Assembly (NCBI GenBank): GCA_000227525.2
Contig: AGIG01000034.1
Location: forward strand, 62,001-126,000
Origin: a gamma proteobacterium HIMB30
Lineage (GTDB): Bacteria; Pseudomonadota; Gammaproteobacteria; Pseudomonadales; Litorivicinaceae
Reading direction: 5' to 3'
Length of the DNA: 64,000 nucleotides
Positions within the stretch are counted from its first letter, which is position 1. Every line of letters starts with the position of its first letter. The notes beneath the pieces were generated by a model. It had not been told where the DNA came from, made no database searches, and worked only from the letters and a program-made list of their open reading frames with translations. The position numbers and the translations under genes are program-made. Positions 35,188 through 64,000 of the stretch are shown here, piece after piece.

Positions 35188-35188
35188 A

Positions 35189-37985: not shown

Positions 37986-38134
37986 GTGTCGTATCAAACT
38001 CCGAAAAGCTAAAAGTCAGGCTCCCAGAATATAAAAACACAGAAAAATTCTCGCTTAAATACCGCCTCACGAAGTCAACCGGATCCACATACTGATCCAT
38101 ACTTCTATCGTGAGCGTTGGAATGAAAAAGTGAA

Positions 38135-38398: not shown

Positions 38399-38399
38399 C

Positions 38400-39284: not shown

Positions 39285-39291
39285 AGTGTTC

Positions 39292-41023: not shown

Positions 41024-41024
41024 A

Positions 41025-42041: not shown

Positions 42042-42156
42042 TACTGTCTCCTCAATTCGTGTGTCCGCATGTCGAATGATTCGTCCTCACGACTAACGCG
42101 ATGTCCATTTAGCCATCAAAAAAATGTGTCGATCAGCATCACAATCTCAGCGCGAG

Positions 42157-44041: not shown

Positions 44042-44056
44042 GATTTCGATCCGCAA

Positions 44057-45013: not shown

Positions 45014-45867
45014 TGTTCATTTCTCCGTTTTTTATTCTCAAGGATAATGGCTCCATAGGCGGTCGCAGATACAGGGACATGATAGAGACGAAATACCTCT
45101 GTGACGTTATCGCCGAGTGCACCCCGCATCACATTCCACATAATCATTTCAACGCCCTCACAGCCCGCTTCGCGGATAAAATCTGTGTGAGACAAACGCG
45201 TATTTGCTAGAGGATCCCGGGTCAAATTGTCGAGAAATTGTTGATCGAATTCAGGATTCACTACGCCAACTCGCTCACCACCAAGTTGATGCGACAAACC
45301 ACCAGTTCCCCAAATCCCGACAGTGATGTCGTCTGGATAAGATGCAACAGCCTTACCAATAGCCTTGCCAAATTTGTAGCATCGCAGTGCTGTGGGGAGC
45401 GGGTGCTGAATCACGTTGATGCAAATGGGTACCACAGCTGTCGGCCATTCTGAGGGCTGCCCATAAGCCACTGAAAGTGGGACCGTGAATCCGTGGTCTA
45501 AATCCATACTGGCGTTCACTGCGAGATCAAACTCATCAATCATCGCTGACTCGATCAGATGCCATGCTAATTCAGGATGTCCTTGCATCGCAGGGACCTG
45601 TCGTCGGCCCCAACCCTCATCGGCGGGTTTGAACGACTCCCCGACACCAACCGTGAACGTCGAGTAGCTATCGAGTGAAAATTCTGTCGCGTGGTCGTTA
45701 TAGACAATGATGTTCACGTCTGGGACGTTGGCTCGATGCCACTCCCTCAAAGGCTCTAATCCTAGAAACAAATTTTTCCAATAAGCCTCTTGTGTTTTGC
45801 CATTATCAATGGCGACACCCAGCCCGGGTACGTGTGATGTGCCCATTCCCGCGATAAGGTTAGCCAT
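45010..45867 (-). CDS. ligB: Protocatechuate 4,5-dioxygenase, beta (catalytic) subunit
   Basis: An extradiol dioxygenase that cleaves protocatechuate between C4 and C5. From the ATG at 45867 it has 285 aa; a longer open frame lies within ligA. Iron ligands are visible: His12 in GTSHVPG and His59 in YNDHATEF, with the acidic third ligand later in the chain. WGTGGLSHQLGG carries the catalytic His. It overlaps the ligA stop by 8 nt, which fits the alpha2-beta2 complex being made in one piece. Confidence 0.95.
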   Translation of the reverse strand: MANLIAGMGTSHVPGLGVAIDNGKTQEAYWKNLFLGLEPLREWHRANVPDVNIIVYNDHATEFSLDSYSTFTVGVGESFKPADEGWGRRQVPAMQGHPELAWHLIESAMIDEFDLAVNASMDLDHGFTVPLSVAYGQPSEWPTAVVPICINVIQHPLPTALRCYKFGKAIGKAVASYPDDITVGIWGTGGLSHQLGGERVGVVNPEFDQQFLDNLTRDPLANTRLSHTDFIREAGCEGVEMIMWNVMRGALGDNVTEVFRLYHVPVSATAYGAIILENKKRRNEQ

Positions 45868-46255
45868 TATTCCATTCCTCAACCGACCGGTTACCGTGAA
45901 TCGGACGCCCACCTTCGTGCATCATTTGTTGAAACTCGTCAAATGTGAGCCTCGGGTCTGCCATCTGTCCGTACATCACCTGCGGTGGTTGTCTGTCAAA
46001 CGACACAAGTTTGAAGGCGTAGTACACATTCGCTCCAAGCTTCAAAAGATCGAGATACCGACGCTCTAAAACGGCCAACTTTTGCTCATCTGTCATCTGA
46101 AAGGTGTCCAGATATGCCCGCTCGTCCTTGGAAAACTCATCGCGACAGACTTCTTTGTTGAGACTCATCAAAAACATATTCACGTGATAGCCCTTCCGGT
46201 ATGAGCGGCTATCAAGGAGATAGGTACCCGGTATGTCGTCGTAGTCTCTTTCCAT
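45860..46255 (-). CDS. ligA: Protocatechuate 4,5-dioxygenase, alpha subunit
   Basis: The small non-catalytic subunit of the dioxygenase, 131 aa, which covers the active site of LigB. The family opening IPGTYLLDSRSYRKGYHVNMF is clear, and the later RYLDLLKLGANVYYAFKL is typical. It is the first gene of the nine-gene lig operon. No Shine-Dalgarno sequence precedes the ATG; the leader is A/T-rich, so initiation may depend on low structure or S1. An inverted repeat CCAAT-5-ATTGG lies at 46301-46315 in the leader. Confidence 0.93.
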   Translation of the reverse strand: MERDYDDIPGTYLLDSRSYRKGYHVNMFLMSLNKEVCRDEFSKDERAYLDTFQMTDEQKLAVLERRYLDLLKLGANVYYAFKLVSFDRQPPQVMYGQMADPRLTFDEFQQMMHEGGRPIHGNRSVEEWNNG

Positions 46256-50026: not shown

Positions 50027-50917
50027 ATGCAAACGCTGGTCATTGGTCTTGGATCGATGGGCTTTGGTGCCGCTGTGTCTTGTGTTCGAGCAGGCTTTCA
50101 AACCATAGGTTTCGACATTAATCCAGATGCGCTCGATCGTTTTCAGGCCGAAGGTGGCCACCCGGTCCAGTCGCTCGATGCCTGTACCGGTATCGACTGT
50201 GTTTTGATCTTTGTTGTCAACGCTGCCCAAGCCGAGTCGGTGCTTTTTGAATCTAACCTACTATCCAAACTCAATCCGGACGCACTGGTAATTAACTGTG
50301 TCACGCTTGCGCCATCTAAGGCGATTGAGATCGCAAAGAACGTTAAAGGCAATGGATTCCGGTACATCGATGCCCCGGTCAGTGGTGGCGCCGCAAAAGC
50401 CCTCGAAGGCCGAATGTCAATCATGGCCTCCGGAGCGCCAGACGCGATGCGCGATGCAAAACCCGTCTTTGACGCTATTTCCGAGCATGTTTTTGAGCTC
50501 GGTGATGATCCAGGTTATGGATCGCGAATGAAATTAGTTAACCAATTGCTGGCTGGAGTTCATATCGCTGCAGCCGCTGAAGCGATGAACTTGGCTGCGT
50601 CATTGGATATGGATTTGCACCAAGTCATCGATGTGATCAGCAAATGTGCAGGCTCATCCTGGATGTTCGAGAACCGCGCACCGCATATTGCTGACGGGGA
50701 TTACACCCCGCTTTCCAGCGTCAATATCTTTGTTAAAGACCTTGGTATCGTGACAGACGAGGCCTCAGGAAACCAGGTCGCTACCCCGCTCTCTGAGGCA
50801 GCGTTGTCTTTGTACCAAAAGGCATCGGAATTGGGTCTCGGTAGCGAAGATGACAGTGCTGTCGTAAAAATCTTGGCTCAACAATCAAAGGTCACGCTCC
50901 CAGGATCAAACACATGA
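50027..50917 (+). CDS. ltnD: L-threonate dehydrogenase
   Basis: It oxidises L-threonate to 2-oxo-L-tetronate with NAD. A 296-aa beta-hydroxyacid dehydrogenase with the nucleotide loop VIGLGSMGFGAA, the substrate motif DAPVSGGAAKALEGRMSIMASG and the catalytic Lys in SRMKLVNQLL. AAGGAG precedes the ATG. It overlaps otnK by 4 nt, placing it first in the tetronate operon. Confidence 0.92.
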   Translation: MQTLVIGLGSMGFGAAVSCVRAGFQTIGFDINPDALDRFQAEGGHPVQSLDACTGIDCVLIFVVNAAQAESVLFESNLLSKLNPDALVINCVTLAPSKAIEIAKNVKGNGFRYIDAPVSGGAAKALEGRMSIMASGAPDAMRDAKPVFDAISEHVFELGDDPGYGSRMKLVNQLLAGVHIAAAAEAMNLAASLDMDLHQVIDVISKCAGSSWMFENRAPHIADGDYTPLSSVNIFVKDLGIVTDEASGNQVATPLSEAALSLYQKASELGLGSEDDSAVVKILAQQSKVTLPGSNT

Positions 50918-52128
50918 AACTTGGATGTGTGGCAGACGATTACACGGGTGCGACCGACCTGGCAGGTCTTCTGAGACGGAGCGGTGCCTCAGTCAAACTG
51001 CATTTTGGATTACCAAAGACGCCGTCAGACGGTCTTGCCGATATCGAAATCGTCGCGCTCAAATGCAGAACGGAACCAGTTGATCAAGCGATCAGTGATT
51101 GCGCGGATGCGGCACACTGGCTTCTGGCTGGTGGCGCCAATCAACTGTATTGGAAATACTGCTCCACTTTTGACTCCACCGCAGAGGGTAATATCGGACC
51201 CGTTGCTGAAGCCTTAATGGCGGTTACTGGACAAACGCAAGCGCTTTACTGCCCGGCGTTTCCAGAAAACGGACGGGCAGTTTTTATGGGTCATTTATTC
51301 GTTGCCGATCAACTGTTGAATGAGTCGAGCATGAAAGATCACCCGCTTACGCCGATGGACGATGCCAACCTGGCGCGGGTATTGGCCCCACAGGTTAAAG
51401 GATCTGTTGGCATTTGGAATCGAGTTGATCAGAAACAGGGAATGCCAATTCCCGATGCAATACACATTATCGGCGATGCAGTCGAATTTGCTGATCTTGA
51501 GTTTTTGATCGAAAACACACCCCGTAATGTCTTACTCACCGGTGGTAGCGCACTCGCGATGCCCCTTCCGAATCATTTAGGGATTGCGTCTACCCATCAG
51601 GTGGGTGACCCCAAACCAGACTCCCGTGCGCTGATATTGAGCGGAAGCTGTTCACAGATGACACAGCAGCAAGTGGCAGAGTATGCAGTAAATCATCCGA
51701 GTTATCAGTTACACCCAGAGAATCTTGGCGAGGCCACGATCCAGGATTGCGTCAACTGGCTTCAGTCGCTGCAATCAACGGAAACTCCGTTGGTGTTTGC
51801 GACAGCGAGTCCAGAGGCAGTCAAAGCGGCCCAATCAGCCCTAGGAGTGACCGAAGCCGGAGCGATCATCGAGCGTGCGATGGCACAAATTGCACAGAAG
51901 GCATTCGAAATGGGCGTCCGACGGTTTGTTGTCGCCGGTGGTGAAACTTCTGGTGCAGTCACTCAGGCGCTCCAAGTGTCTGAGGTCATGATCGGTCGCG
52001 AAATCTGTCCAGGTGTGCCTTGGGTATTCAGCGGATCCGATTCGAATTTGGTTGGGCTGGCCTTAAAGAGTGGGAATTTCGGGTCCCCTTCATTTTTTAG
52101 TGATGCGTTAGCGCTTCTCGAGGACTAG
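50914..52128 (+). CDS. otnK: 3-oxo-tetronate kinase
   Basis: It phosphorylates 3-oxo-tetronate to its 4-phosphate with ATP. The 404-aa protein is of the DUF1537/OtnK family: an N-terminal substrate domain starting LGCVADDYTGATDLAGLL and a C-terminal nucleotide domain with FVVAGGETSGAVTQAL and LALKSGNFG. The central LSGSCSQMT is also a family mark. The stop is 2 bp before otnC. Confidence 0.93.
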   Translation: MKLGCVADDYTGATDLAGLLRRSGASVKLHFGLPKTPSDGLADIEIVALKCRTEPVDQAISDCADAAHWLLAGGANQLYWKYCSTFDSTAEGNIGPVAEALMAVTGQTQALYCPAFPENGRAVFMGHLFVADQLLNESSMKDHPLTPMDDANLARVLAPQVKGSVGIWNRVDQKQGMPIPDAIHIIGDAVEFADLEFLIENTPRNVLLTGGSALAMPLPNHLGIASTHQVGDPKPDSRALILSGSCSQMTQQQVAEYAVNHPSYQLHPENLGEATIQDCVNWLQSLQSTETPLVFATASPEAVKAAQSALGVTEAGAIIERAMAQIAQKAFEMGVRRFVVAGGETSGAVTQALQVSEVMIGREICPGVPWVFSGSDSNLVGLALKSGNFGSPSFFSDALALLED

Positions 52129-52130
52129 TC

Positions 52131-52769
52131 ATGGATCTACGTGAGCAATTATGCGACTTCGGCTTGAGCCTTTACAGCAGAGGGTTCACTCATGGAAGCA
52201 CAGGAAATCTCTCGGTTCGCCTACCCGATGGCAATCTATTGGTGACTCCGACGGGCAGCTCTTTGGGACGTCTTACGCCCGAAGGTCTCAGTGTCATCAA
52301 GCCAAACGGGGAACTAATTTCCGGACCAAAACCCACCAAAGAAGTTCCACTGCATCAAGCGCTCTATTCGACACGCGGAGAGCGCGCTGGTGCTGTGGTT
52401 CATCTACACAGTTGCTATGCAACGGCACTTTCTTTACTGCCCGATCAAAACGAAAAGGACTGGCTTCCTCACTTGACACCCTACGGAATCATGCAACTCG
52501 GGCAGGTACGCCTTTTGCCTTATTTTATTCCGGGTAGTCCTGAGATTGGGTCTGCGATCAAAGGACTTGCTGGTAAGCACTCCGCTATTATGCTCGCCAA
52601 TCACGGGCCCGTCGTATCAGCAAAAACACTCGAGGCGGCCGTTTATGCATCTGAAGAACTTGAGGCAACATCGAAGCTTGCCTATCTGACACGCGCTCTA
52701 GAACCCAATGCATTGAGCCCTGAACAAGTGAATGAACTCGTCTCGACATACAACGTGGAGTGGAACTGA
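52131..52769 (+). CDS. otnC: 3-oxo-tetronate 4-phosphate decarboxylase
   Basis: A class II aldolase-type enzyme of 212 aa that decarboxylates 3-oxo-tetronate 4-phosphate to dihydroxyacetone phosphate. Zinc ligands are in VVHLHSCYATAL and in the later MLANHGPVVSAK; the phosphate loop is in FTHGSTGNLSVRL. OtnC differs from fuculose-phosphate aldolases mainly in context, and the flanking otnK and otnI genes decide the call. Confidence 0.92.
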   Translation: MDLREQLCDFGLSLYSRGFTHGSTGNLSVRLPDGNLLVTPTGSSLGRLTPEGLSVIKPNGELISGPKPTKEVPLHQALYSTRGERAGAVVHLHSCYATALSLLPDQNEKDWLPHLTPYGIMQLGQVRLLPYFIPGSPEIGSAIKGLAGKHSAIMLANHGPVVSAKTLEAAVYASEELEATSKLAYLTRALEPNALSPEQVNELVSTYNVEWN

Positions 52770-53524
52770 TGCCTCAATTTTCTGCCAATCTCGGTTTCCT
52801 ATGGCCTGATGACTCACTGGCCGATGCCATTCGTGCAGCAAAGTCTGCTGGCTTTCATGCTGTCGAATGTCATTTTCCTTTTGATGAGCCGATCGACGCA
52901 GTACAACAGTCACTCGAGGAGACAGGCTTCACAATGCTCGGTCTCAATACGATACGAGGGCCATTGAATGCCGGCATGGCAGCATTACCAGATTCAGTCC
53001 CTGAAGCGAGGGTAGCAATCGATCAGGCGTTTGATTATGGTTCTCAAATTCAGGCGCTCAACGTCCACGTCATGGCTGGAAAGACCGCTGGCGAAAGGGC
53101 TGAAAAGGTGTATCTGGATAATCTCAAATATGCCTCAGATGTCGCAGCGAAAAATAACATGTCTGTCTTAATAGAACCTCTCAACCCCTATGATATGCCT
53201 GGATATTTTCTACGTGATACAGCGCATGCGTGTGATCTGATCAGCACCCTTCAGTTAACCAACGTAAAACTGATGTTTGATTGTTACCATATCGGCCGGA
53301 CAGAGGGCGATGTGATCTCACGCTTTAAGGAATGCTTTCCCTACATTGGTCATATTCAATTTGCGTCGGTACCGGATCGTGGACCACCTGACCGAGGGAT
53401 TGTTGATTACGATGCGGTCTTTGCTGCCATTGATGCAGGCGGGTGGAAAAGACCACTGGGTGCAGAGTATAAAGTTGAAAGCCTCACTGAAGACTCTCTC
53501 GATTGGCTCAATTCCTACATCTAA
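52769..53524 (+). CDS. otnI: 2-oxo-tetronate isomerase
   Basis: It converts 2-oxo-tetronate to 3-oxo-tetronate. A 251-aa TIM-barrel protein of the hydroxypyruvate isomerase family: FSANLGFLWPDDSLADAI at the start, LIEPLNPYDMPGYFL with the catalytic Glu, and LMFDCYHIGRTEGDV for the metal site, with the second Glu in LGAEYKV. The ATG overlaps the otnC stop (TGATG), with GGAG upstream; a GTG nine bases earlier is an alternative. It completes the tetronate pathway to dihydroxyacetone phosphate. Confidence 0.93.
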   Translation: MPQFSANLGFLWPDDSLADAIRAAKSAGFHAVECHFPFDEPIDAVQQSLEETGFTMLGLNTIRGPLNAGMAALPDSVPEARVAIDQAFDYGSQIQALNVHVMAGKTAGERAEKVYLDNLKYASDVAAKNNMSVLIEPLNPYDMPGYFLRDTAHACDLISTLQLTNVKLMFDCYHIGRTEGDVISRFKECFPYIGHIQFASVPDRGPPDRGIVDYDAVFAAIDAGGWKRPLGAEYKVESLTEDSLDWLNSYI

Positions 53525-53545: not shown

Positions 53546-54502
53546 ATGAAAATCGCACTCCTCGATGACTATTATGATCGTGCCAGAGATTACGCCGACT
53601 GGGATTCAGTTGAATTTGCCAGCATTGATTTCATTGATCACCATATCGCCGATGAGGATGCATTGATTGAACGACTACGTCCATACGATGCTGTGGGCTT
53701 AATGCGTGAGAGAACGCCTTTTCCTGAGTCAATTATCAATGCTCTCCCGAATCTTAAGCTGATTGTGACCTCTGGAAAGCAAAATGCGGCGATTGATGTG
53801 AGAGCCGCCTCCAAACGGAATATCGTGGTCTGCGGCACACCGTCTCCGGGACACGCAACTGCCGAGCTGGCTTTTCTACTTATTATGGCGCTTTGCAGGA
53901 AGCTTTTACCTCTCGTAAATGGGTTGCAGATTGATCAGCAATGGCAGCCAGTCATGGGAAATGATTTACGCGGTAAAACACTTGGGATACTCGGTCTAGG
54001 CCGCTTAGGCTCTCAGGTCGCTTCCTTAGGCCAGGCGATTGGGATGCGTGTAGTTGCTTGGAGCACAAACCTCGATCGAGAGACTTGTGTCGAAAAAGGT
54101 GTCGAATATGTCTCTAAAGATGCCCTTTTCGAGGAGTCAGACTTCGTCTCGATTCATCTCCGGCTGTCTGAACGAAGTCGAGATCTTGTGACACTAACAG
54201 AGTTACAAGCGCTTGGTTCAAAAGGTTATCTGGTGAACACATCGCGTGCAGAAATTATTCATCATCAGGATTTACTGACTGCACTTGATGATGGATTAAT
54301 CGCTGGAATCGCAACAGATGTTTTAACATCGGAGCCAGCTTCGGCCGATGACCCGATCGTCGATCATCCGCGCTCGCTCGTCACACCACACATCGGGTAT
54401 TGCACCGAAGAGACATTTCGCGTGTTCTACAGCGAGATGCTGAATGCCTTCACAGCATTTAATGACGGAAATCCTATCAATGTGATTGAACCTAAAGCCT
54501 GA
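53546..54502 (+). CDS. D-2-hydroxyacid dehydrogenase family protein
   Basis: A 318-aa NAD-dependent dehydrogenase with the catalytic set Arg (in NTSRAEIIHHQDLL), Glu (in ASADDPIVDHPRS region) and His (in TPHIGYCTEETF), and the nucleotide motif LGILGLGRLGSQVA. It is last in the tetronate operon (21 bp after otnI, with AAAGAG before the ATG). It may act on a C4 hydroxyacid or 2-oxo acid related to tetronates. Its last three codons lie in a hairpin shared with the convergent tcuB gene. Confidence 0.87.
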   Translation: MKIALLDDYYDRARDYADWDSVEFASIDFIDHHIADEDALIERLRPYDAVGLMRERTPFPESIINALPNLKLIVTSGKQNAAIDVRAASKRNIVVCGTPSPGHATAELAFLLIMALCRKLLPLVNGLQIDQQWQPVMGNDLRGKTLGILGLGRLGSQVASLGQAIGMRVVAWSTNLDRETCVEKGVEYVSKDALFEESDFVSIHLRLSERSRDLVTLTELQALGSKGYLVNTSRAEIIHHQDLLTALDDGLIAGIATDVLTSEPASADDPIVDHPRSLVTPHIGYCTEETFRVFYSEMLNAFTAFNDGNPINVIEPKA

Positions 54503-54517
54503 TTTGTCAGGCTTTAG
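54492..54517. terminator. Bidirectional hairpin built from the ends of two convergent genes
   Basis: CTAAAGCCTGA-TTTG-TCAGGCTTTAG is a perfect 11-bp inverted repeat with a 4-nt loop. The left arm is the last codons of the hydroxyacid dehydrogenase gene and the right arm, on the other strand, the last codons of tcuB. Both genes end in Lys-Ala-stop (AAA GCC TGA). The loop is the whole intergenic space. Neither side has a long T-run, so the structure may act as a weak terminator or a 3' stabiliser. Confidence 0.7.
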
Positions 54518-55568
54518 CCATTTGAGCTTCGCGAATCAGAGCCGCCAAGCGAAAAAATCCATGTGCCATTTTTGTATATGGCAACGTTAAAAAAAATGCA
54601 GCAATACTAGCGAGATGTATGTTTAGCATGGCGCCAGCGGCAGCAGTTCCGCCGAGCCAGTACAACAAAAGGCCCGAGGTAGATACAAGCCATAGGATTA
54701 AAATGAATCCGTATTCGCCAGATCGTCGATCAGAAACGCCAAGTTTCGGGTCAGATTTTGTTTTGAGATAGAGAAGCTTTGAAGTACCCAAGGTCAAGAG
54801 AATTCCACCGGACACCCCAAATATTTTGGGTAGCGAAAGAAAAGGATAAGGCGCCTCAAGCCCAAAACCATAGTGCATGACGGTCGCGACAGAAGTTGAC
54901 GCAAAACACAGAAGAAAACCATACATCGTGGCATGATGCGCCCACTTCCGTGTCTGACTATAACGATCATCATTCTCGTAATTACAGCCCTGCCCCATAC
55001 CACCGTCAAGATTCTTCATCGTCCCAGCTGCGTGAAATGCCGCCGATAGGTCTCTCCCCTGAATCCAGTCACCTCCGACAGTATTCCAATATCGATAAAG
55101 ACCTATAAAAAGGATCAATAACGGGCCAAGAAACAGCGGTGTAAATACAGCAACTAGGCTATTGTGGGAAACCAGACTGTAGAAATTCTCATCTGAAATC
55201 CATGGAATATTGCCAATCAACCCAAACATGATCGCCGCCACCACTGTGATCAAAGCAATAATCCAGCCATTACTTTGAATTTTCTCAGCAGCAACGGAAC
55301 CTGGAACATGAGACTCCCAACTTTCTGCTCGAACATTCGCCAGAGCCTTCGGTATGTTCAGATCGAACTCGTGTGGACAGGTAAATTGGCAGCTGTGATA
55401 ACACGCTTGGCAGTTGTGACAGAGGTTGGCCATATGAATAATATTTTCATCATCGAAACTCCGGTATCGCGTCATCGCCTGAAATGACGCACAAAAACCT
55501 TCGCAGTAGCGACACGCGTTACAAATTGCTAGCTGACGATTCGCTTCTTCAAGCGCTTTGGCTTGCAT
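54507..55568 (-). CDS. tcuB: Tricarballylate dehydrogenase electron-transfer membrane protein TcuB (CitB-like)
   Basis: It re-oxidises the flavin of TcuA and passes electrons to the membrane quinone pool. From the ATG at 55568, with AAGGAGG at 9-nt spacing, it has 353 aa; a longer frame would overlap tcuA further. Two [4Fe-4S] motifs sit near the N-terminus: CNACRYCEGFC and CHNCQACYHSCQFTCP. About six hydrophobic segments follow, with conserved His residues for haem in the later helices. The tcuA-tcuB overlap (20 bp) is standard for this system. Confidence 0.93.
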   Translation of the reverse strand: MQAKALEEANRQLAICNACRYCEGFCASFQAMTRYRSFDDENIIHMANLCHNCQACYHSCQFTCPHEFDLNIPKALANVRAESWESHVPGSVAAEKIQSNGWIIALITVVAAIMFGLIGNIPWISDENFYSLVSHNSLVAVFTPLFLGPLLILFIGLYRYWNTVGGDWIQGRDLSAAFHAAGTMKNLDGGMGQGCNYENDDRYSQTRKWAHHATMYGFLLCFASTSVATVMHYGFGLEAPYPFLSLPKIFGVSGGILLTLGTSKLLYLKTKSDPKLGVSDRRSGEYGFILILWLVSTSGLLLYWLGGTAAAGAMLNIHLASIAAFFLTLPYTKMAHGFFRLAALIREAQMAKA

Positions 55569-57012
55569 ACTCAGCGGCCTCCTTCCCGGCAATACGGCCG
55601 AATACCGTTCCAATTGTCATACCAAATCCTGCCAAATAGCCCTGTCCTAGGATGCTTCCAGCCATGATTTCGCCTGCTGCCCAAACGTTTGTGGCGCGCT
55701 CATTGGAAAAAGAAACGCGAGCATCATGATCGACCCTAAACCCGAGATATGTGAAAGTCACACCGGGTCTCAATTCATAACCATAAAATGGCGGCGTATC
55801 GATTGGCCGAGCCCAGTTTGTTTTAGCTGGCTCCAGATCTTTTGTTGCTAATCCATCAAGCTCTGTCGGATGGAACTCCCCTTCCTGACAAGCTGCATTG
55901 AATTCCGCTGTCGTCTTCGCAACTGTTTCGATCGGAAGACCGAGCTTCTCAGCTAACTCAGGAATTGAATCGGCTTTGGTCGCAGTAAAAACGGTCGGCA
56001 TAAAGAGATTGTAGGATTTTTGATCGATAATCGCATAGCCCACTTGATCGGGTTGCGCCGCAACCAACCGGCCCCAAATCGCGTAGCGCTTTGGCCAGAC
56101 ATCTTCACCCTCGTCATAAAAACGCTCACCGTTTTTGTTCAGAACAATAGAAAACGGCACGCAGTCAACTCGAGTCACAATCCCTCCATCATACTCCGGC
56201 GCACGACCATCAATAGCGACCGCATGGCATTGAGTTGGATCGCCAACCTGGTCGGCCCCTTTGTCTAGAAGGTTCTTGAGCACTCCTCCAGTGTTATACG
56301 GAGTACCACGAATCAGGAAGTTTTTAGCCGCATCACCCCATGCACGAGTTAACCATTCTTTATCGGATTCAAAGCCACCAGAAGCCAAAACGACACTCCG
56401 TCCGCGAATGTAGGATTGAATCCCTTTGATATCGACAAGGACACCATCGAACAATCGATCTTCAACAATGACATCCAAGACGGTCGCCAAATAATGAACA
56501 TCAACACCGAGGTCTTCCAAACGGTTGTAGTAGGCATTCACGAGCGCCTTCCCACCACCAAGGAAAAAAGCATTCGTGCGGGATAACGACAGGGTTCCGG
56601 AGAGCGATTCTTGAAAATACACTCCTTGGCTTTGCATCCAATCGTAACATTCTTCAGAGCTTTGGATTGCCAGCCTGGCAAGTGGTTCGTCGGTATTCCC
56701 TTGGGTGACCTTGAGTAAGTCCTCGAAGAATTCGTCCTCAAGATACTGGTCAGTTAACATACCCTTCGGTGCATCATGCATACACCGAAAATTGCGTGTA
56801 TGGCGTGAGTTTCCTCCTCGGTATGAACGACGGGCTCTTTCGAGAAGTAGTACTTTCGCTCCAGACTCGGCCGCTCTGATAGCCGCGCATAGTGCCGCAT
56901 TTCCACCACCAACAACGATAACATCGTAGGAGACAGGGCCCTCCCCTGGGCGAATCAATCCGAGTTCCGGTTCAATTTTCGGTATTTCGATAGGCATCTG
57001 TTGCACGCTCAT
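55549..57012 (-). CDS. tcuA: FAD-dependent tricarballylate dehydrogenase TcuA
   Basis: It oxidises tricarballylate to cis-aconitate. The 487-aa flavoprotein has the FAD loop VVGGGNAALCAAIRAAESGAKVLLLE, the substrate and active-site stretch RGGNSRHTRNFRCMHDA, and the C-terminal GYEL(R)PGVTFTYLGF and VWAAGEIMAGSILGQGYLAGFGM of the FrdA/TcuA family. The start at 57012 overlaps the GntR gene by 41 bp; an ATG at 56997 is an alternative. With TcuB, a Tct-type transporter and a PrpF-like isomerase nearby, a tricarboxylate route to the TCA cycle is well supported. Confidence 0.93.
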   Translation of the reverse strand: MSVQQMPIEIPKIEPELGLIRPGEGPVSYDVIVVGGGNAALCAAIRAAESGAKVLLLERARRSYRGGNSRHTRNFRCMHDAPKGMLTDQYLEDEFFEDLLKVTQGNTDEPLARLAIQSSEECYDWMQSQGVYFQESLSGTLSLSRTNAFFLGGGKALVNAYYNRLEDLGVDVHYLATVLDVIVEDRLFDGVLVDIKGIQSYIRGRSVVLASGGFESDKEWLTRAWGDAAKNFLIRGTPYNTGGVLKNLLDKGADQVGDPTQCHAVAIDGRAPEYDGGIVTRVDCVPFSIVLNKNGERFYDEGEDVWPKRYAIWGRLVAAQPDQVGYAIIDQKSYNLFMPTVFTATKADSIPELAEKLGLPIETVAKTTAEFNAACQEGEFHPTELDGLATKDLEPAKTNWARPIDTPPFYGYELRPGVTFTYLGFRVDHDARVSFSNERATNVWAAGEIMAGSILGQGYLAGFGMTIGTVFGRIAGKEAAEYASQSA

Positions 57013-57646
57013 GAAACTGTTTTAATCGATAACGCTGGGCATTGGTAAGGTGCTCACCCATGACCTTTTCAGCCAACGTGACATCTCGCGCCCTGAGCGC
57101 ATCAAGTAGTGAACGATGTTCTTCGATCGCTGTTTCAGCACGCTCAGGAAACTCCATGGTCGATGGACCCAAAATGAGCATTGCCTTTTGAACCGACTCA
57201 AGGGCTTTCCACAGGTACCGGTTTTTCGCGCTGTTTAGGATAGCGACATGAAAGGTGTGATTAATTAACGCCATTTCTCTTGCATCATGTCGAACCTTTT
57301 CCATTCTCGACTGAATAACTTCGAGCTCTTGTAGTTCGACCTCTGTAATGACCCGTGCACTCATCTGCGCAGCTGTTCGCTCCAGGACTTCACGTATCTG
57401 ATACAGTTCAATCACTTCGGCATACGATAGGTCTCTTATGACCATTCCAAACCTGGGTTCTGAGGTCACCAATCCATCCGACTCTAGCCGTCGCAATGCT
57501 TCCCGCACCGGAGTACGGCTGACACCCAGTGCTTCGGCAATCGCTTGTTCACGCAAGTAATCGCCAGGCTTCAATTGTCCTCTCTGGATTTGCGTCAACA
57601 GCTGCTGGTAACAACCAATTGCTTGGTTTTCCTTCACTTCTGTCAT
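56972..57646 (-). CDS. GntR-family (FadR/FCD) regulator of tricarballylate genes
   Basis: A 224-aa regulator: N-terminal winged helix (GVSRTPVREALRRLESDGLV, residues about 35-75) and C-terminal FCD domain with the ligand-metal segment REMALINHTFHVAILNSAKN. It lies directly upstream of tcuA and overlaps it, so it should regulate tcuAB and itself through the TATAC-G-GTATA palindrome 5 bp upstream of its start. In Salmonella the tcu genes use a LysR-type regulator, so this is a different arrangement. Confidence 0.88.
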   Translation of the reverse strand: MTEVKENQAIGCYQQLLTQIQRGQLKPGDYLREQAIAEALGVSRTPVREALRRLESDGLVTSEPRFGMVIRDLSYAEVIELYQIREVLERTAAQMSARVITEVELQELEVIQSRMEKVRHDAREMALINHTFHVAILNSAKNRYLWKALESVQKAMLILGPSTMEFPERAETAIEEHRSLLDALRARDVTLAEKVMGEHLTNAQRYRLKQFHERATDAYRNTEN

Positions 57647-57650
57647 AATC

Positions 57651-57661
57651 TATACGGTATA
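57651..57661. promoter_or_regulatory. Predicted GntR operator between the tcu regulator and the AbrB-like gene
   Basis: TATAC-G-GTATA, a perfect 11-bp palindrome (13 bp with flanking C and C), 4 bp upstream of the regulator ATG on the minus strand and 37 bp before the AbrB-like start on the plus strand. FCD-type regulators commonly bind short AT-rich palindromes with a GT/AC core. Its position would obstruct initiation of the regulator gene. Confidence 0.55.
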
Positions 57662-57698
57662 CTTTTGAATACAGAAATGTCAACGCCAAGGATTTTCT

Positions 57699-58736
57699 TT
57701 GAGACACCAGGTTTCCACCATTGCACTCTGCCTCTTGTGCGGCCTGATACTCAACTCGATTGGCGCTCCTCTTCCGTTTTTATTCGGGTCGCTGGCCGGC
57801 TGCCTTATTGGCGCGCTATTGGGAATGAATCTCAAAGGAATTCCTATCTGCTCGACCATAAGTCGAACGGTCCTTGGTGTCGCCATTGGAACATCGTTGA
57901 GTTGGGCCCTGGTGCTCGCGATTCCCAACTATTTAGCGACACTTATTCTCATACCGATCTATGTGGTGCTGATTGGCCTTTGTGGCATCCCTTACTTCTA
58001 TCGAATCTTTGGGTACGATCTTCCAACCTCCTTCTACGCGTCTATGCCGGGCGGACTCCAGGACATGGTCATCTTCGGAATAGAAGCTGGCGCCAATCCT
58101 CGTGCACTCTCTCTGATTCATGCGACACGCGTCTTGGTCTTGGTCACAGCCGCTCCACTTGCACTAGTTTATTTTTTTGACCTTGATCTCAACCGTCCGC
58201 TAGGCGAACCTCTCGTTGCACTGCCAGCGTCCGAACTTGCGATGCTCTTCGGCATTGGGATATTGGGATGGCAAGTCTGCAAGCGGATCGGAATGTTTGG
58301 GGCATCGGTATTAGGGCCCTTATTATTCTCAGCGCCCCTTGCGTTAGCCGGGATCCTAACGCACCGGCCGCCGCAGGAGGCAATTCTCGTCTCCCAATTC
58401 TTCATTGGTCTTGGTATTGGTGTTCACTATCGAGGAATCACGGTGGCTGAGCTTAAGCGCGATATTTTAGCTGCGCTGGGATATATCTTCATTCTAGCGA
58501 CCATTGCTATTGGAACGATGATCATCGCCTCCGAATTCAGTACGCTGAGAGATGCTGATGTATTTCTCGCTTTTTGGCCTGCCGGACAGGCTGAGCTTGC
58601 CGTTTTATCACTCGCTGCAGGAAGTAACCTTGGTGTGATTGTTTTACATCACCTCGTGAGGATTATTCTAGTCATCATGGGGGCGCCGATTATTAGCTCA
58701 AAAGCACTTAATATCAGCGCTCCAAGACACCGGTGA
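57699..58736 (+). CDS. AbrB-family membrane protein (duplicated membrane domain)
   Basis: A 345-aa membrane protein of ten or so hydrophobic segments in two homologous halves (each with a FGSLAGCLIGALLG- or FGASVLGPLLFSAPLA-like glycine-rich helix). It belongs to the AbrB family of E. coli, often annotated as a putative ammonia monooxygenase or regulator, which is not supported by function; transport is more likely. It starts at TTG with AAGGA upstream. It diverges from the tcu regulator and is convergent with the LysR gene. Confidence 0.82.
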   Translation: MRHQVSTIALCLLCGLILNSIGAPLPFLFGSLAGCLIGALLGMNLKGIPICSTISRTVLGVAIGTSLSWALVLAIPNYLATLILIPIYVVLIGLCGIPYFYRIFGYDLPTSFYASMPGGLQDMVIFGIEAGANPRALSLIHATRVLVLVTAAPLALVYFFDLDLNRPLGEPLVALPASELAMLFGIGILGWQVCKRIGMFGASVLGPLLFSAPLALAGILTHRPPQEAILVSQFFIGLGIGVHYRGITVAELKRDILAALGYIFILATIAIGTMIIASEFSTLRDADVFLAFWPAGQAELAVLSLAAGSNLGVIVLHHLVRIILVIMGAPIISSKALNISAPRHR

Positions 58737-58844
58737 TCTTGGATAAATAGCGATACACCAAAATTTAGACCACCCAGATTGACGCACCAATCAAGAAAAC
58801 TTGTCTGTCACAAGGTCAAGCGGCAACGCATAGAAACACTCGGG

Positions 58845-59741
58845 TCAATCGATGTTTCGATGATCAAGAAACATATCCACTAAGATTTGTGCCAACGGAC
58901 TCAGCTCGCGCCCTCGGCGTCTGATCAAGCCCACGACGCGTTTAACTTCTGGTTCAATTAAGGGGACGCTCACCAACAGCGGATGATCTTCCGAAGGCAT
59001 CGCCATCGAGGGCACGGATGCAATGCCCAATCCAGCTTCAACCAGACCAATCATTGTGGTCCCGTGCTGGGTTTCAAAAATACTGTGCGGTTTATCGGGA
59101 GCGGAGGCCAGCGCTTGATCAATAATCAAGCGATTACCGGACCCTTTATCAGCTGCGATGTAGTCGTATTTCGCTAATTCACTCCAGCGAATCTGTCGTT
59201 GTTTTGCGAGAGGATGATCACGGCGGCAAGCCGCAACAAAGTGCTCGGTCACCAGTTCTGTAAACTCAACTTCTTTATCCTGAGCCCCAACAAAATTGAT
59301 CCCAAAATCGGCGTCACCTCGAGCAACATCAAGCAAAATATCATTAGCACTCGAATCGATGAGCTTCACCTTGACCATTGGATGCAGCGTATGAAATTTT
59401 TGAATAACTCGTGAGGCGAAGTAGTTTACCGCCGATGGCACACATCCGATGATAACTTCACCCTGGCTGACCGGTGTTGTCCCTTTCACTCCTAAAATCG
59501 TCGTATCAAGGTCCGCCAAGATCCGATCAATATTTCGATGAAAATCGCGCCCCGTCGCTGTCAGCATCACCTGCCTGGTTGTTCTTTCGACAAGCTGTGA
59601 TTCGAGTGCTTTTTCAAGTTTATCAATGCGACGACTGAACGCCGGTTGTGAAATATGAATCTGCTCTGCGGCGGCGCTGAACGAGCCAAGTTGAGCCAGC
59701 GCGGAAAAAGCGACTAAGTCGTCAATATCGATCTTTGCCAT
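58845..59741 (-). CDS. LysR-family regulator divergent from the Tct transporter
   Basis: A 298-aa LysR protein with the helix-turn-helix LAQLGSFSAAAEQIHISQPAFSRRIDKLEKAL near residues 14-45 and a full co-inducer domain with GVKGTTPVSQGEVIIGCVPS at its start. It is divergent from tctC across 129 bp that carry the inverted repeat at 59825. It should sense a tricarboxylate. The 108-bp gap to the AbrB-like gene has no strong terminator. Confidence 0.9.
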   Translation of the reverse strand: MAKIDIDDLVAFSALAQLGSFSAAAEQIHISQPAFSRRIDKLEKALESQLVERTTRQVMLTATGRDFHRNIDRILADLDTTILGVKGTTPVSQGEVIIGCVPSAVNYFASRVIQKFHTLHPMVKVKLIDSSANDILLDVARGDADFGINFVGAQDKEVEFTELVTEHFVAACRRDHPLAKQRQIRWSELAKYDYIAADKGSGNRLIIDQALASAPDKPHSIFETQHGTTMIGLVEAGLGIASVPSMAMPSEDHPLLVSVPLIEPEVKRVVGLIRRRGRELSPLAQILVDMFLDHRNID

Positions 59742-59824
59742 CGAATTAATTCATGTAACGCATAAGTGGATAAGATTAATGCATTTTAATTTGCTTTCCT
59801 ACTAAGTAATCATGCGCTCGGGCA

Positions 59825-59842
59825 AGTCGTATGGTGACGACT
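59825..59842. promoter_or_regulatory. Inverted repeat in the tctC leader or operator region
   Basis: AGTCGT-ATGGTG-ACGACT, a perfect 6-bp inverted repeat with a 6-bp spacer, located 28 bp before the tctC ATG and 83 bp from the LysR start. It could be a regulator site or a small hairpin in the tctC leader. It lies just upstream of the AGGAGA ribosome site. Confidence 0.4.
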
Positions 59843-59870
59843 CCTTAATAATAAGTATCAGGAGACTGAA

Positions 59871-60953
59871 ATGATTAAAATTCGGACTAAATTCTTAGGC
59901 GTGATCGCAGGAGCAATCCTCTCTCAATCAGCCTTTGCTGAGGTCAACTTCGCGGGTAAAACAATTGAATGGACGATTCCATTTTCGGAAACTGGTGGCT
60001 CTGCCAAATGGGCAAACTTCTTTGCACCACTCCTATCTGATGCATTGCCAGGTAACCCAACGGTCGTCGTCAAATTTATGCCGGGCGCTGGATCAACGAA
60101 GGGCGCAAACTGGTTCCAAAGACAAAAGCATACGGACGGTACAGTCATGTTCGGTTCTTCAGGATCGACACAGTTTCCGTACCTACTGGGCGATCCCCGT
60201 GTGAAATATGAATATTCAGACTGGGTCCCCGTCATGGCATCCGGTACTGGAGGAGTTGCGTACTTAAATGCTGAGGCTGGCGCGAAGTTTGATGGTTCAG
60301 CCAATAACCTTAAGGGTATGAAGTTCGTTTACGGAAACCAAGGTGCAACTCGTCTTGATTTGGTTCCCGCGATGGCGTGGGACATGCTCGGACTCGACGT
60401 CAAGCACGTGATGGGTATTAAAGGTCGGGGTGACGGTCGTAAAATGTTCGAGTCAGGTGAAGCGAATATCGACTATCAAACATCTGCTGGATACTTGAAA
60501 GGGTCTAAAAAATTCGTCGACGATGGCAAAGCAGTTGCAATGATGACTTGGGGCGCTTTAGACGATAAGGGAGACATTGTTCGCGATCCAACTTTCCCAG
60601 ATATTCCAACTTTCAAAGAAGTCTGCGAAAAAACAGACGGCTGTGATACCTCGAGTAAGCAATTCCGCGTATGGAAAGCCTTCTTCGTTTCCGGCTTCCC
60701 AGTCCAGAAACTCGCTTTCCTACCCGCGGGAACGCCTAAAGAAGTGAGTGATACCTATGCTGCTGCATTTGAGAAAATCCGTAGTCGTCCAGATTTCGAG
60801 AAGCTCGCTGCAAAGCGTCTGGGTAAATACCCAATGTTTGTTGGTGCTGAATCTCAGGATGCACTAAAAACTGCGACCACACTTGATTTCAACGCAAAGG
60901 CCTACGCCACGCACTATCTAAAAGAGCGCTTCGGCGTAACGCTTCGGAAGTAA
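59871..60953 (+). CDS. tctC: Tripartite tricarboxylate transporter substrate-binding protein (TctC)
   Basis: A periplasmic binding protein of 360 aa, longer than the usual 320. The signal peptide ends at SQSAFA. The fold is recognisable from FAGKTIEWTIPFSETGGSAKWANFFAPLL and the NPTVVVKFMPGAGSTKGANWF region, with a conserved LPAGTPKEVSDTY segment near the C-terminus. AGGAGA precedes the ATG. It is the first gene of the transporter operon and is followed by a strong hairpin. The ligand is expected to be a tricarboxylate. Confidence 0.9.
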   Translation: MIKIRTKFLGVIAGAILSQSAFAEVNFAGKTIEWTIPFSETGGSAKWANFFAPLLSDALPGNPTVVVKFMPGAGSTKGANWFQRQKHTDGTVMFGSSGSTQFPYLLGDPRVKYEYSDWVPVMASGTGGVAYLNAEAGAKFDGSANNLKGMKFVYGNQGATRLDLVPAMAWDMLGLDVKHVMGIKGRGDGRKMFESGEANIDYQTSAGYLKGSKKFVDDGKAVAMMTWGALDDKGDIVRDPTFPDIPTFKEVCEKTDGCDTSSKQFRVWKAFFVSGFPVQKLAFLPAGTPKEVSDTYAAAFEKIRSRPDFEKLAAKRLGKYPMFVGAESQDALKTATTLDFNAKAYATHYLKERFGVTLRK

Positions 60954-60969
60954 GCCGAAGTATTGGATA

Positions 60970-60991
60970 ACCGCTGGCTTCGGCCAGCGGT
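60970..60991 (+). terminator. Intercistronic UUCG-loop hairpin between tctC and tctA
   Basis: ACCGCTGGC-TTCG-GCCAGCGGT is a perfect 9-bp stem closing a C(UUCG)G tetraloop, the most stable common RNA loop. It starts 16 bp after the tctC stop. The following GATCTGATCGTTTT is only weakly T-rich, so it is more likely a partial terminator or mRNA stabiliser than a full stop. It would give more binding protein than permease. Confidence 0.75.
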
Positions 60992-61005
60992 GATCTGATC
61001 GTTTT

Positions 61006-63033
61006 ATGGATATCATCAACGTAGCCCTCGACTCCCTTGTGAGTGCGATGATCCTTATTCTCACCCCGGAAGTCTTCTTATTCCTCGGCATGGGTGTGGT
61101 TCTGGGCTTATCCGTCGGAATTTTCCCCGGTCTCGGTGGCATCGCAGGCTTATCGCTGATGCTCCCCTTTATCTTTGGGCTTGATCCGATTATTGGGCTC
61201 GCATTAATGATTGGCTTGATTGCCGTTGTACCAACTTCGGACACCTTTGCGTCAGTGTTGATGGGTATCCCTGGCTCTTCGTCGAGCCAGGCGACCGTAC
61301 TCGATGGGTTTCCGATGTCGAAACAGGGACATGCTGCTCGAGCGTTATCTGCGGCTTTTGCGTCATCTCTTTTCGGCGGGCTAGTTGGTGCATTATTTCT
61401 AACCCTATTTATCCTTGTTGCTAGGCCGATTGTTTTAGAGTTTCAATCGCCCGAACTATTAATGGTTTCAATTTTCGGTCTGTCGATGGTCGGAATCTTA
61501 GCCGGCAAGATCCCATTAAAAGGCGTTGCAGCCGCGGGACTCGGCATCATGGTGGCATCAATTGGTGAGGGGCCTTTCAACGGGGAGCTCCGTTTAGTCT
61601 CCTACGAAGTCCCTTACTTACTCGACGGATTCAAGCTTGTGATTGTTGGCTTGGGAATATTTGCAATTCCAGAAATTGTGGCACTACTTCGTAAAGGCGG
61701 AAGTATTAGCGAAAGATCACCACTCGGTTCTGGCTGGCTGATCGGCATCAAGGATTGGTGGACCAATCGTTGGTTATCAATCCGCTGTTCTATTATTGGC
61801 GTTCTTGTCGGTGTCATTCCCGGTTTGGGCGGATCTGTCGTTGATTGGATTGCGTATGGGCATTCAATTCAAACGACAACCGATAAATCGAAATTCGGAA
61901 AAGGAGAAATCCGCGGCGTCATCGCCCCTGAAAGTGCAAATAACGCTAAAGAAGGTGGCGGCTTAGTACCAACGCTGTTATTCGGAATACCAGGCTCCGG
62001 ATCGATGGCAATTTTCATTGGAGCACTTGCTCTTCTTGGCTCAGGTGAACTCGAAGTTGGGCAATCGATGCTCACCGATAATCTTGACTACACGTATGGG
62101 ATCGTTTGGCTTTTGGCTATCGCCAATGTGATCGGCACCGCCCTCTGTATTGTCCTAGCACCACAAATAGCACGTCTGACATCGATCCCATTTGTATTGG
62201 TCGCACCCTTCGTCTTTATGATCATTACATTTGCCGCATTTCAATCCGGACAAGATGTTCTCGATTTAGCCGCACTGTTTTGTATTGGTATCTTGGGCAT
62301 CCTGATGAAGCGGTTCGACTGGTCTCGTCCGGCTTTCTTGATTGGATTCGTACTCGCAAATCCAGTGGAAAATTTTTCAAATAATGCCTATCAAATAGCG
62401 GGTATCCGGTTCGACGACAGCTTGGCAAAAGGCTTGGATTATTTATTTGGGCCGATTGTTATAACAATCGCGGTAATCACGATCATTTCAATTGTCGTTG
62501 GTGTTCGCCAAGCGAAATTTATTCAGCCAGAAGGTGAACTCGCCACGGGAACCAAACGAGCACCTTTCAAATTTATTTTGACGCTCATCGCATTTACGGG
62601 AATTTTTCTATTCAATATTGGATCTATCCCAGACTACGCTTGGACGGATGCAGTATTTCCCTTCGCCATCGGATGTACGGTATTGGTGATACTGCTTTAT
62701 TTAATGATCCAGATGATGCTAAAGCCCGAATCAGATCCGCTGTTCGTTGATGGGGAAATCCAATCCACTCAAGACCATGAGCGTCCGTTGTGGAGCACGA
62801 TCGGTTGGTTTATTGCACTTCTTTTAGGGACAGTTATTGCTGGTTTCATCATTTCGCTAAGCGTGTTTCTGACGTGCTTCTTTCGATTAAGAGCGGAACT
62901 GACATGGCCGCGAACCCTCTTTATGTCCGCTTGTGGTATTTGTTTTATGGTGTTCATGGGATGGATGCTCAATCGAGAATTCCCAGGCGGACTTCTACAA
63001 TATTACGTCGCGCTTCCCTGGCCATTACGCTGA
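61006..63033 (+). CDS. Fused TctA-TctB tripartite tricarboxylate transporter permease
   Basis: A 675-aa inner-membrane protein. About the first 505 residues are a TctA large permease (start GMGVVLGLSVGIFPGLGGIAGLSLMLPF, and repeat GVIPGLGGSVVDWIAYGHS, then ESANNAKEGGGLVPTLLFGIPGSG). The last 165 residues hold about four hydrophobic segments with TctB character after a polar linker near residue 510. Normally tctB is a separate gene between tctC and tctA and none exists here, so the fusion explains its absence. There is no clear ribosome site, and the start follows the hairpin. Confidence 0.85.
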   Translation: MDIINVALDSLVSAMILILTPEVFLFLGMGVVLGLSVGIFPGLGGIAGLSLMLPFIFGLDPIIGLALMIGLIAVVPTSDTFASVLMGIPGSSSSQATVLDGFPMSKQGHAARALSAAFASSLFGGLVGALFLTLFILVARPIVLEFQSPELLMVSIFGLSMVGILAGKIPLKGVAAAGLGIMVASIGEGPFNGELRLVSYEVPYLLDGFKLVIVGLGIFAIPEIVALLRKGGSISERSPLGSGWLIGIKDWWTNRWLSIRCSIIGVLVGVIPGLGGSVVDWIAYGHSIQTTTDKSKFGKGEIRGVIAPESANNAKEGGGLVPTLLFGIPGSGSMAIFIGALALLGSGELEVGQSMLTDNLDYTYGIVWLLAIANVIGTALCIVLAPQIARLTSIPFVLVAPFVFMIITFAAFQSGQDVLDLAALFCIGILGILMKRFDWSRPAFLIGFVLANPVENFSNNAYQIAGIRFDDSLAKGLDYLFGPIVITIAVITIISIVVGVRQAKFIQPEGELATGTKRAPFKFILTLIAFTGIFLFNIGSIPDYAWTDAVFPFAIGCTVLVILLYLMIQMMLKPESDPLFVDGEIQSTQDHERPLWSTIGWFIALLLGTVIAGFIISLSVFLTCFFRLRAELTWPRTLFMSACGICFMVFMGWMLNREFPGGLLQYYVALPWPLR

Positions 63034-63043
63034 GAAATAAATC

Positions 63044-64000
63044 ATGAGTCAACAAACTTCATTCCCATTTGTATTCATGAGAGGTGGAACTTCACGCGGT
63101 CCATACATGCGCCGAACCGACCTCCCTCTCGATTTGGACGAATTAAGCAAAGTACTGATTTCATTAGTGGGCTCAGGTCAAAGCCTGAACATTGATGGAA
63201 TCGGTGGTGGAAATGCGGTGACCACCAAAGTCGCCATGCTCAGCCAGTCCGATGATCCATGGGCTGATGTGGACTATTTTTTCGCCCAGGTCGGCGTTGA
63301 TGATCAAACCGTCGATTACAAACCAACGTGTGGAAACATTTTATCCGGAGTTGGACCAGCTGCAATTGAAATGGGGTTAGTACAGGCATCTGATGGAGTA
63401 ACTGAAATAAACATCAAAGCAGTCAATACAGGTGCCAGAGTGATTGCAAAAGTACAGACTCCAGATCGCAACGTCAGTTATTTCGGTGATGCCACGATCG
63501 ACGGTGTTCCCGGCACATCATCTCCTATTGAATTGCTCTTTTTGGACGTAGCCGGCTCCTCGACTGGAAAACTATTTCCGACGGGCGCTATGACAGACAG
63601 AATTGGCGGGATCGACGTCACTTGTATGGACTTGGCGATGCCAATGGTCATTGCGAGGGCTGATAGTTTTGGTCTGACGGGCAACGAATCCGTTGACCAA
63701 TTGAACGGAAATACAGAATTCTTTAGTACGATGGAGCAGATACGTATTGAGGCTGGAAACTTAATGGGTATGGGAGACGTCACTCAATCGGTGACACCCA
63801 AGTTTGGCCTTCTGGCCGCTCATCAAACAACCGGACACATTATTTGTCGATATTTTATGCCCTGGAAAACCCATCCATCGCTAGCAGTCACAGGTAGTCA
63901 ATGCCTGGCATCTTGTGCTTTAGCTCCAGGAACCGTCGCTGACGACCTGATGGATGCCCCAAAAGAGCGGCCATCTCGAATCACTCTTCACCATCCTATG
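63044..64000 (+). CDS. PrpF-family isomerase, truncated by the window end
   Basis: A PrpF-type protein with 319 codons visible, still open at the right edge. It shows FMRGGTSRGPYM near residue 11, Lys62 in GGGNAVTTKVA and Cys96 in KPTCGNILSGVGPAAIE, the acid/base pair expected in the family, then DGVPGTSSP. PrpF proteins isomerise aconitate-type compounds (2-methylaconitate, trans-aconitate) or 4-oxalomesaconate. Just downstream of a tricarboxylate transporter and near tcuAB, trans- to cis-aconitate isomerisation fits best. It is clearly diverged from the galD copy at 39292. Confidence 0.88.
   Translation, partial: MSQQTSFPFVFMRGGTSRGPYMRRTDLPLDLDELSKVLISLVGSGQSLNIDGIGGGNAVTTKVAMLSQSDDPWADVDYFFAQVGVDDQTVDYKPTCGNILSGVGPAAIEMGLVQASDGVTEINIKAVNTGARVIAKVQTPDRNVSYFGDATIDGVPGTSSPIELLFLDVAGSSTGKLFPTGAMTDRIGGIDVTCMDLAMPMVIARADSFGLTGNESVDQLNGNTEFFSTMEQIRIEAGNLMGMGDVTQSVTPKFGLLAAHQTTGHIICRYFMPWKTHPSLAVTGSQCLASCALAPGTVADDLMDAPKERPSRITLHHPM

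Follow-up and report, generated by a model that had tools for sequence, protein, structure and literature searches.

TcuAB, a tripartite transporter and a PrpF-family protein in a probable tricarboxylate utilisation module of the gamma proteobacterium HIMB30

Gene content and organisation of the locus

The genome of the gamma proteobacterium HIMB30 (2,168,870 bases, completeness given as 98.55%) carries a group of genes in which a tricarballylate dehydrogenase and its partner (tcuA and tcuB), a tripartite transporter and a gene of the PrpF isomerase family, called prpF2 here, lie close to each other. This module belongs to a stretch of 64,000 nucleotides of contig AGIG01000034.1 (C3:62001-126000), referred to below as the window, whose numbering gives all the coordinates. 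The module spans 54507-64000, and the stop codon of prpF2 lies beyond the window end, at the equivalent of position 64135. From left to right are found a D-2-hydroxyacid dehydrogenase family gene (HADH, plus strand), tcuB-tcuA and a GntR-FCD regulator (minus strand), an AbrB permease (plus), a LysR regulator (minus), then tctC, a tctA-tctB fusion and prpF2 (plus). All the genes named in the preliminary description of this DNA are intact reading frames supported by Pfam or NCBIfam families. The span that it gave starts at 55549, which leaves nearly all of tcuB outside, and prpF2 extends past its end; its gene list also lacked the AbrB permease and HADH.

The importer half ends with prpF2 (63044-64000, plus strand, cut by the window end; PF04303). 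The intergenic gaps between tctC, tctA and prpF2 are 52 and 10 bp, which indicates a tight operon. The fusion permease (61006-63033, plus strand) has TctA as its N-terminal part, with 363.6 bits against PF01970 (cut-off 28.9). TctB corresponds to the C-terminal third of the protein and, although PF07331 is the best Pfam match there, it remains below the curated cut-off (24.1 vs 29.1 bits). The gene tctC (59871-60953, plus strand) encodes a periplasmic tricarboxylate receptor of a divergent TctC-type subfamily, which misses the PF03401 cut-off (21.6 vs 27 bits) and for which a sequence search against solved structures found no relative. Its AlphaFold2 model has a mean predicted local distance difference test score (pLDDT) of 82.3; in a fold search against the PDB, ranks 1 to 17 include TphC/terephthalate-binding proteins, BugD, Bug27, MatC and a TctC protein, and TRAP receptors come only from rank 18 onward. 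Despite the missed Pfam cut-off, the predicted fold matches solved receptors of the TctC/Bug type first. Divergent from tctC, the LysR-type regulator (58845-59741, minus strand; PF03466/PF00126) is YbhD-like, sharing 40% identity with E. coli YbhD (BLASTP E 3e-86). Visual inspection of an alignment of three sequences only shows, in the region between the two genes (59742-59870), an inverted GCAT/ATGC repeat that is a candidate regulatory site.

In the other half, tcuA (55549-57012, minus strand) encodes an FAD-dependent tricarballylate dehydrogenase that passes both TcuA equivalog models (NF006130, 678 bits vs 369; TIGR02485, 588.2 vs 372.55). Its membrane Fe-S/cytochrome electron-transfer partner, encoded by tcuB (54507-55613, minus strand), is over the cut-off of TIGR02484 (325.6 vs 246.6 bits) but under that of NF011607 (376.5 vs 524). 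With its TTG start, tcuB shares 65 bp with tcuA, although a start further downstream is possible, and the GntR-family (FCD) regulator gene (56972-57646, minus strand; PF07729, PF00392) overlaps tcuA by 41 bp. Because of these overlaps, gntR, tcuA and tcuB are probably carried by one transcript. On the other side of gntR, a divergent region of 52 bp (57647-57698) keeps a GTATAC...GAATAC block in an alignment of three sequences only, a candidate operator, and precedes the AbrB-family membrane permease gene (57699-58736, plus strand; PF05145, 213.9 bits vs 29.2). None of the 10 scanned proteins of 52760-64000 matches an MFS-type family, which indicates that TcuC is not in this region, the rest of the genome not having been searched for it.

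Two dehydrogenase genes flank the module. HADH (53546-54502, plus strand; PF02826/PF00389), a possible module partner, is convergent to tcuB with a gap of 4 bp. In the window and in the congeneric strain LSUCC0096 alike, it closes an operon for the use of four-carbon acid-sugars, about 9-10 kb upstream of prpF. In the window, this LtnD/OtnK/OtnC/OtnI-like operon occupies 50027-53524, some of its gene names being presumptive, and HADH follows. At the other end, an isocitrate/isopropylmalate-type dehydrogenase gene and then a TauE-type permease gene are found 3' of prpF2, in convergent orientation; in LSUCC0096, an isolate of the OM252 clade of Gammaproteobacteria (PMC8269220), prpF is followed by a co-oriented isocitrate-type dehydrogenase with 51% identity. 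The preliminary description had considered that prp genes might come immediately downstream of prpF2, which is not the case: the convergent dehydrogenase stands there, and no prp gene was found within 8.8 kb downstream (PrpB and PrpC were not searched genome-wide).

PrpF proteins and their neighbours

A genome search revealed two PrpF proteins, prpF2 (63044-64135) and a LigU-type tautomerase (39292-40353). The whole prpF2 gene product reaches 315 bits against PF04303 (cut-off 27) and, among solved structures, it is closest to E. coli YbhH (6otv, 320 bits), LigU scoring 282 bits. The other protein has 497 bits against solved LigU, and its gene adjoins those of LigK, a LigJ-type amidohydrolase, a 2-pyrone hydrolase-like protein and LigB. 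It belongs to a protocatechuate 4,5-cleavage cluster (35174-45912) that also encodes a QuiC-like dehydroshikimate dehydratase and a Gfo/Idh oxidoreductase; the LigJ, 2-pyrone hydrolase and LigC names in this cluster are presumptive and follow in part from gene position.

The catalytic pair Lys62/Cys96 of PrpF2 is invariant across 55 aligned rows, and aligns with the two positions that differ among the LigU entries 6p3j, 6p3h and 6p3k. Both PrpF proteins of the genome retain this Lys/Cys pair, known from the PrpF of S. oneidensis, for which PMC5690661 reports isomerisation of aconitate and the importance of Lys73 and Cys107 for function. PrpF2 and LigU/GalD (39292-40353; PDB 6p3h, 6p3j and 6p3k) share family and residues but, unlike PrpF2, LigU/GalD proteins form a separate clade linked to LigK.

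A tree with 71 PrpF rows shows this separation; L129 was left out of it for an in-frame stop, and seven further rows were discarded manually, either as near-copies or for thinning. The program flagged L102 and L133 as long branches, the placement of L133 being unsure. An earlier tree had kept 59 of 116 rows, after skipping frames with a stop or shorter than 300 residues, removing four duplicates and thinning near-relatives by hand. PrpF2 and YbhH belong to a clade of 49 rows (support 99/92) and LigU to a clade of 18 rows (support 99/94). The LigK gene is beside prpF, or one gene off (L099 and L100), in all 18 rows of the LigU clade, and is adjacent in none of the 49 rows of the other clade; one of these, L071, has LigK elsewhere, next to its own LigU. 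An importer of the TTT, DASS, ABC or MFS kind is found nearby in 40 of these 49 rows, a count that results from the reading of several tables, the neighbour scans detecting only relatives of the supplied query proteins. In 19 of the 25 loci of one scan, PrpF has a LysR of the YbhD kind close by (40% identity or more).

Several operons of the importer-linked clade consist of LysR, PrpF and an importer alone, as far as the annotation and the query set show. Where the isomerase is the only enzyme beside a regulator and an importer, its product would be expected to belong to central metabolism already, a role that would suit cis-aconitate and would not suit the enol form of oxalomesaconate. Unannotated neighbours outside the query set could weaken this reasoning, yet several types of importers recur around one clade. 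In locus L132, LysR and PrpF are followed in the same direction by porin-like and TctC/TctB/TctA-sized frames, the porin, TctC and TctB being recognised by eye only.

The NCBIfam model NF033377, named 4-oxalomesaconate tautomerase, is passed by the LigU-type protein of the window (526.9 bits) and also by PrpF2 (450.1 vs 440), by YbhH (515) and by an ABC-linked relative from Rhizobium (521). All seven scanned PrpF proteins, whether LigK-linked or importer-linked (including those of L105, L106, L108, L109 and L117), exceed its cut-off. Since it passes members of both clades, this model cannot tell function, and the automatic names given within the importer-linked clade are doubtful.

Conservation of the module in relatives

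Relatives of the locus were taken as the best 80 of 256 matches for prpF2, 48 of which extend 7 kb or more to either side and are called well-covered. In the locus DNA examined, TctA is found in 69 of the 80 and TctC in 64; true TcuA (at least 50% identity) occurs in 29, TcuB in 28, and only a TcuA-family flavoprotein with less than 40% identity in 27. Among the well-covered loci, TctA and TctC are each present in 45 and together in the same number, AbrB in 30 and GntR in 29. The isocitrate-type dehydrogenase is matched in 3 of them (6 of the 80), LigK in one, LigJ and LigB in none. Related gene sets occur in other marine bacteria. In many roseobacters, the TcuA-family flavoprotein (30-35% identity to the TcuA of the window) replaces true TcuA, as seen at 14462-15925 of the Shimia locus L014 and in 26 further relatives; the single TcuB-less TcuA-like protein that was scanned passes one TcuA model (547 vs 369) and fails the other (229 vs 373).

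The arrangement with two regulators is only partly conserved. Both regulators of the preliminary description, GntR and LysR, are indeed in the window, but the window LysR is matched in only one of the 48 well-covered loci and a two-component pair is found in 44, mostly alphaproteobacteria judging by title, on the opposite strand and upstream of TctC where it was placed.

HADH is present in 45 of the 48 well-covered loci, and within 3 kb 3' of prpF in 43. The best genome match of the HADH from the Shimia module is the HADH of the window (E 2.4e-51, vs 6.5e-29 for the next one), with an identity of only 35%.

The association between PrpF and TcuA was also examined at a broader scale, with Fisher values that are descriptive and not tests, the tree rows and genomes being related. 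Among 25 genomes of the same bacterial family, this PrpF occurs in 7 and TcuA in 8, the two being present together in 6; TcuA is found in 6 of the 7 genomes with this PrpF vs 2 of the 18 without (Fisher 0.001). Of 348 genomes sampled from the phylum, 31 have TcuA and 4 this PrpF (at least 60% identity), all four with TcuA within 10 kb (hypergeometric 5e-5, or 6e-4 excluding the genome of the window); the three others come from one family and are not independent. Any PrpF match (E at most 1e-60) is found in 13 of the 31 TcuA genomes vs 46 of the 317 others, with the two genes at most 10 kb apart in 6 of these 13. In two genomes of another family, a PrpF with 43% identity is accompanied by TctC, TctA, an isocitrate-type dehydrogenase, a two-component pair, TcuAB and GntR. 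Because the genes recur together in relatives and PrpF and TcuA co-occur in the phylum sample, a chance arrangement is unlikely. The first description placed TcuAB in the same module as an importer and a protein of the PrpF family, and in this respect it is supported by this linkage and by the position of PrpF2 in the tree.

Proposed function and comparison with known systems

This gene set probably imports plant-type tricarboxylic acids and converts them to a normal cell metabolite. On the basis of gene content and context, we favour, with moderate confidence, a utilisation module with two entries, in which PrpF2 would convert trans-aconitate to cis-aconitate and TcuAB tricarballylate to the same product. 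Import of a tricarboxylate such as trans-aconitate would rely on TctC as receptor and TctA-TctB as permease, and PrpF2 could shift the double bond of trans-aconitate through Lys62/Cys96. TcuA and TcuB, as known for their families, would oxidise tricarballylate and deliver the electrons to the membrane. Purified fungal Adi1 reaches an equilibrium of 88% trans and 12% cis (PMC4720413); an equilibrium of this type favours the trans form and requires a drain of cis-aconitate. AcnB, which is encoded by the genome and is with LeuC its only aconitase-family protein, may fill this role by taking cis-aconitate to isocitrate, which the nearby isocitrate/isopropylmalate-family dehydrogenase may carry further. 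Given their positions, the YbhD-like LysR may control the import and isomerase half and GntR-FCD the tcuAB/AbrB half.

The module appears as a combination of parts swapped between known systems. The Salmonella tcuRABC operon, which has one LysR regulator and is not known to include an isomerase, shares tcuA and tcuB with the window, whereas TcuC is not found in the window region. Like the window, E. coli ybhD-ybhHI-ybhJ has a LysR, the PrpF-family YbhH and a putative tricarboxylate transporter; unlike it, this transporter is different (presumably of the DASS type), a putative hydratase is present (YbhJ, presumably aconitase-like) and TcuAB is not adjacent. This set in E. coli K-12 (ybhD-ybhH-ybhI-ybhJ, L105) is a candidate trans-aconitate operon. 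Acinetobacter baylyi ADP1 reportedly has tcuAB, tcuC-pacI and two regulators, TcuR/TclR, both of the LysR family; its isomerase PacI is said to be periplasmic and not a PrpF, and its importer TcuC to be an MFS protein. It has in common with the window tcuAB adjoining the genes of a tricarboxylate importer and of an aconitate isomerase (a probable one in the window), a linked use of both acids (proposed for the window) and two regulators, whereas the window differs by a PrpF without recognised export role, a tripartite transporter, a LysR with a GntR and an AbrB permease. A linked trans-aconitate/tricarballylate system is reported for A. baylyi (Baugh et al. 2024, AEM e02111-23, as cited in PMC12338516).

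The PrpF-like protein had initially been presented as a substitute for an aconitate isomerase of a known kind. This does not hold, as PrpF-family aconitate isomerases are already described in two articles: TarA and TbrA (PMC11495376), and Adi1, whose listed characterised match is the oxalomesaconate tautomerase of P. putida (PMC4720413). The TarA-TarB-TarR system of Bacillus velezensis resembles the window in having a PrpF-superfamily isomerase, an importer and an adjacent regulator (an activator in Tar) but its importer is of the MFS type (PMC11495376). A word search of the text of this article gave no mention of tcuA, tct or tripartite. More generally, no description of a system that combines TcuAB with a tripartite transporter and a PrpF isomerase appears among the matches listed in the open-access literature (titles and abstract starts), most subscription papers being outside this scope.

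Several observations weigh against aconitate isomerisation by PrpF2 and its pairing with TcuAB. Substrate, direction and regulation are all deduced from gene context, and TarA, TbrA and Adi1 are known here from descriptions, none of their sequences being in the 71-row tree. PrpF2 itself passes the tautomerase model, and the derepressed YbhH operon of E. coli has been linked to L-malate and not to aconitate in one article (PMC9068703). Among the relatives, 11 of the 80 loci do not have this TctA in the DNA examined; in the well-covered loci, true TcuA is found in just 19 of 48 and TcuB in 20, a TcuA-like flavoprotein (less than 40% identity) occurs alone in 20 and the TcuA family is absent from 9, while HADH, a nearly constant partner, has no role in the proposed pathway. 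No recognised importer was seen in 9 of the 49 rows of the importer-linked clade (L130, L063, L052, L107, L084, L048, L071, L011 and L025). In one of them, L107 from a Paracoccus yeei plasmid, PrpF adjoins three MmgE/PrpD genes, together with an AbrB protein and an ABC transporter that carries an amino-acid annotation. Lastly, L007 and L009, from the same genus as the window, carry an aromatic-cluster 2-pyrone hydrolase 8-10 kb downstream, one of them with LigU.

The conservation of HADH close to prpF leads to another explanation, possible albeit rather unlikely: a different polycarboxylate, e.g., a hydroxylated or one-carbon-longer tricarboxylate, would be degraded by HADH, an isocitrate/isohomocitrate-type dehydrogenase and PrpF2, with trans-aconitate as a side substrate at most. 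The divergence of TctC is in line with it, as is the isocitrate/isopropylmalate-type dehydrogenase that adjoins prpF in the same orientation in L005, L036, L082, the Shinella locus L109 and L139/L140; the best model for this dehydrogenase is isopropylmalate/isohomocitrate, followed closely by isocitrate and homoisocitrate, none being over its cut-off. However, this dehydrogenase is rare among the 80 loci, the HADH of the window belongs to another operon than prpF2, and the superclade relatives reduced to a regulator, PrpF and an importer fit a one-step entry. A broader proposal, which we regard as speculative, is that the conserved marine island (TctC, TctA-TctB, PrpF2, HADH, TcuA with or without TcuB and in some cases an isocitrate/homoisocitrate-type dehydrogenase) serves to break down a polycarboxylate of marine dissolved organic matter for which no catabolic pathway is described; PrpF2 and the dehydrogenases would then act in sequence and trans-aconitate would be only a model substrate.

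PrpF2 could also be a second 4-oxalomesaconate tautomerase (GalD/LigU) for protocatechuate or gallate, the transporter importing an intermediate of an aromatic pathway. This is improbable, even though relatives are annotated in this way, NF033377 is passed and the 4,5-cleavage cluster lies 22 kb upstream. This cluster has its own LigU-clade protein, so that a second tautomerase is not needed; moreover, LigK is found in one of the 80 relatives only (L071, beside its own LigU) and LigJ and LigB in none, in the DNA examined. This activity was rejected as the main role of PrpF2 on account of the clade, the LigK linkage and the failure of NF033377 to separate the clades. A 2-methylaconitate isomerase of an AcnD-type methylcitrate cycle would be a member of the same Pfam family, but we give this very little credence: PrpF2 is far below the cut-off of TIGR02334 (163.8 vs 440.55), neither AcnB nor LeuC is an AcnD, and MmgE/PrpD has no match in this genome of 98.55% completeness. 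The failed model, the absence of AcnD and PrpD, and that of prp genes downstream led to the rejection of the methylcitrate role. In the same way, it is highly unlikely that the tcuAB-like genes encode CobZ-type enzymes of B12 synthesis unrelated to the transporter and PrpF, although the TcuA model TIGR02485 bears the name CobZ_N-term. CobZ was rejected because TcuA and TcuB are separate proteins in the window, some of the relatives also have them linked to PrpF and the transporter, and no protein of the genome is over the cut-off for the corrin-ring enzyme CobJ (24 vs 246.35 bits).

Aconitate isomerisation appears as the likeliest role of PrpF2 in view of its clade and neighbours. The key isomerase of this type of module is probably misnamed in public databases, as the usual neighbours of the importer-linked clade are importers and not the ring-cleavage enzymes that the tautomerase name would imply. 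For the large set of proteins that NF033377 names 4-oxalomesaconate tautomerase, E. coli YbhH among them, this provides a function that can be tested; it also points to the use of tricarboxylates by marine bacteria such as the OM252 clade and roseobacters.

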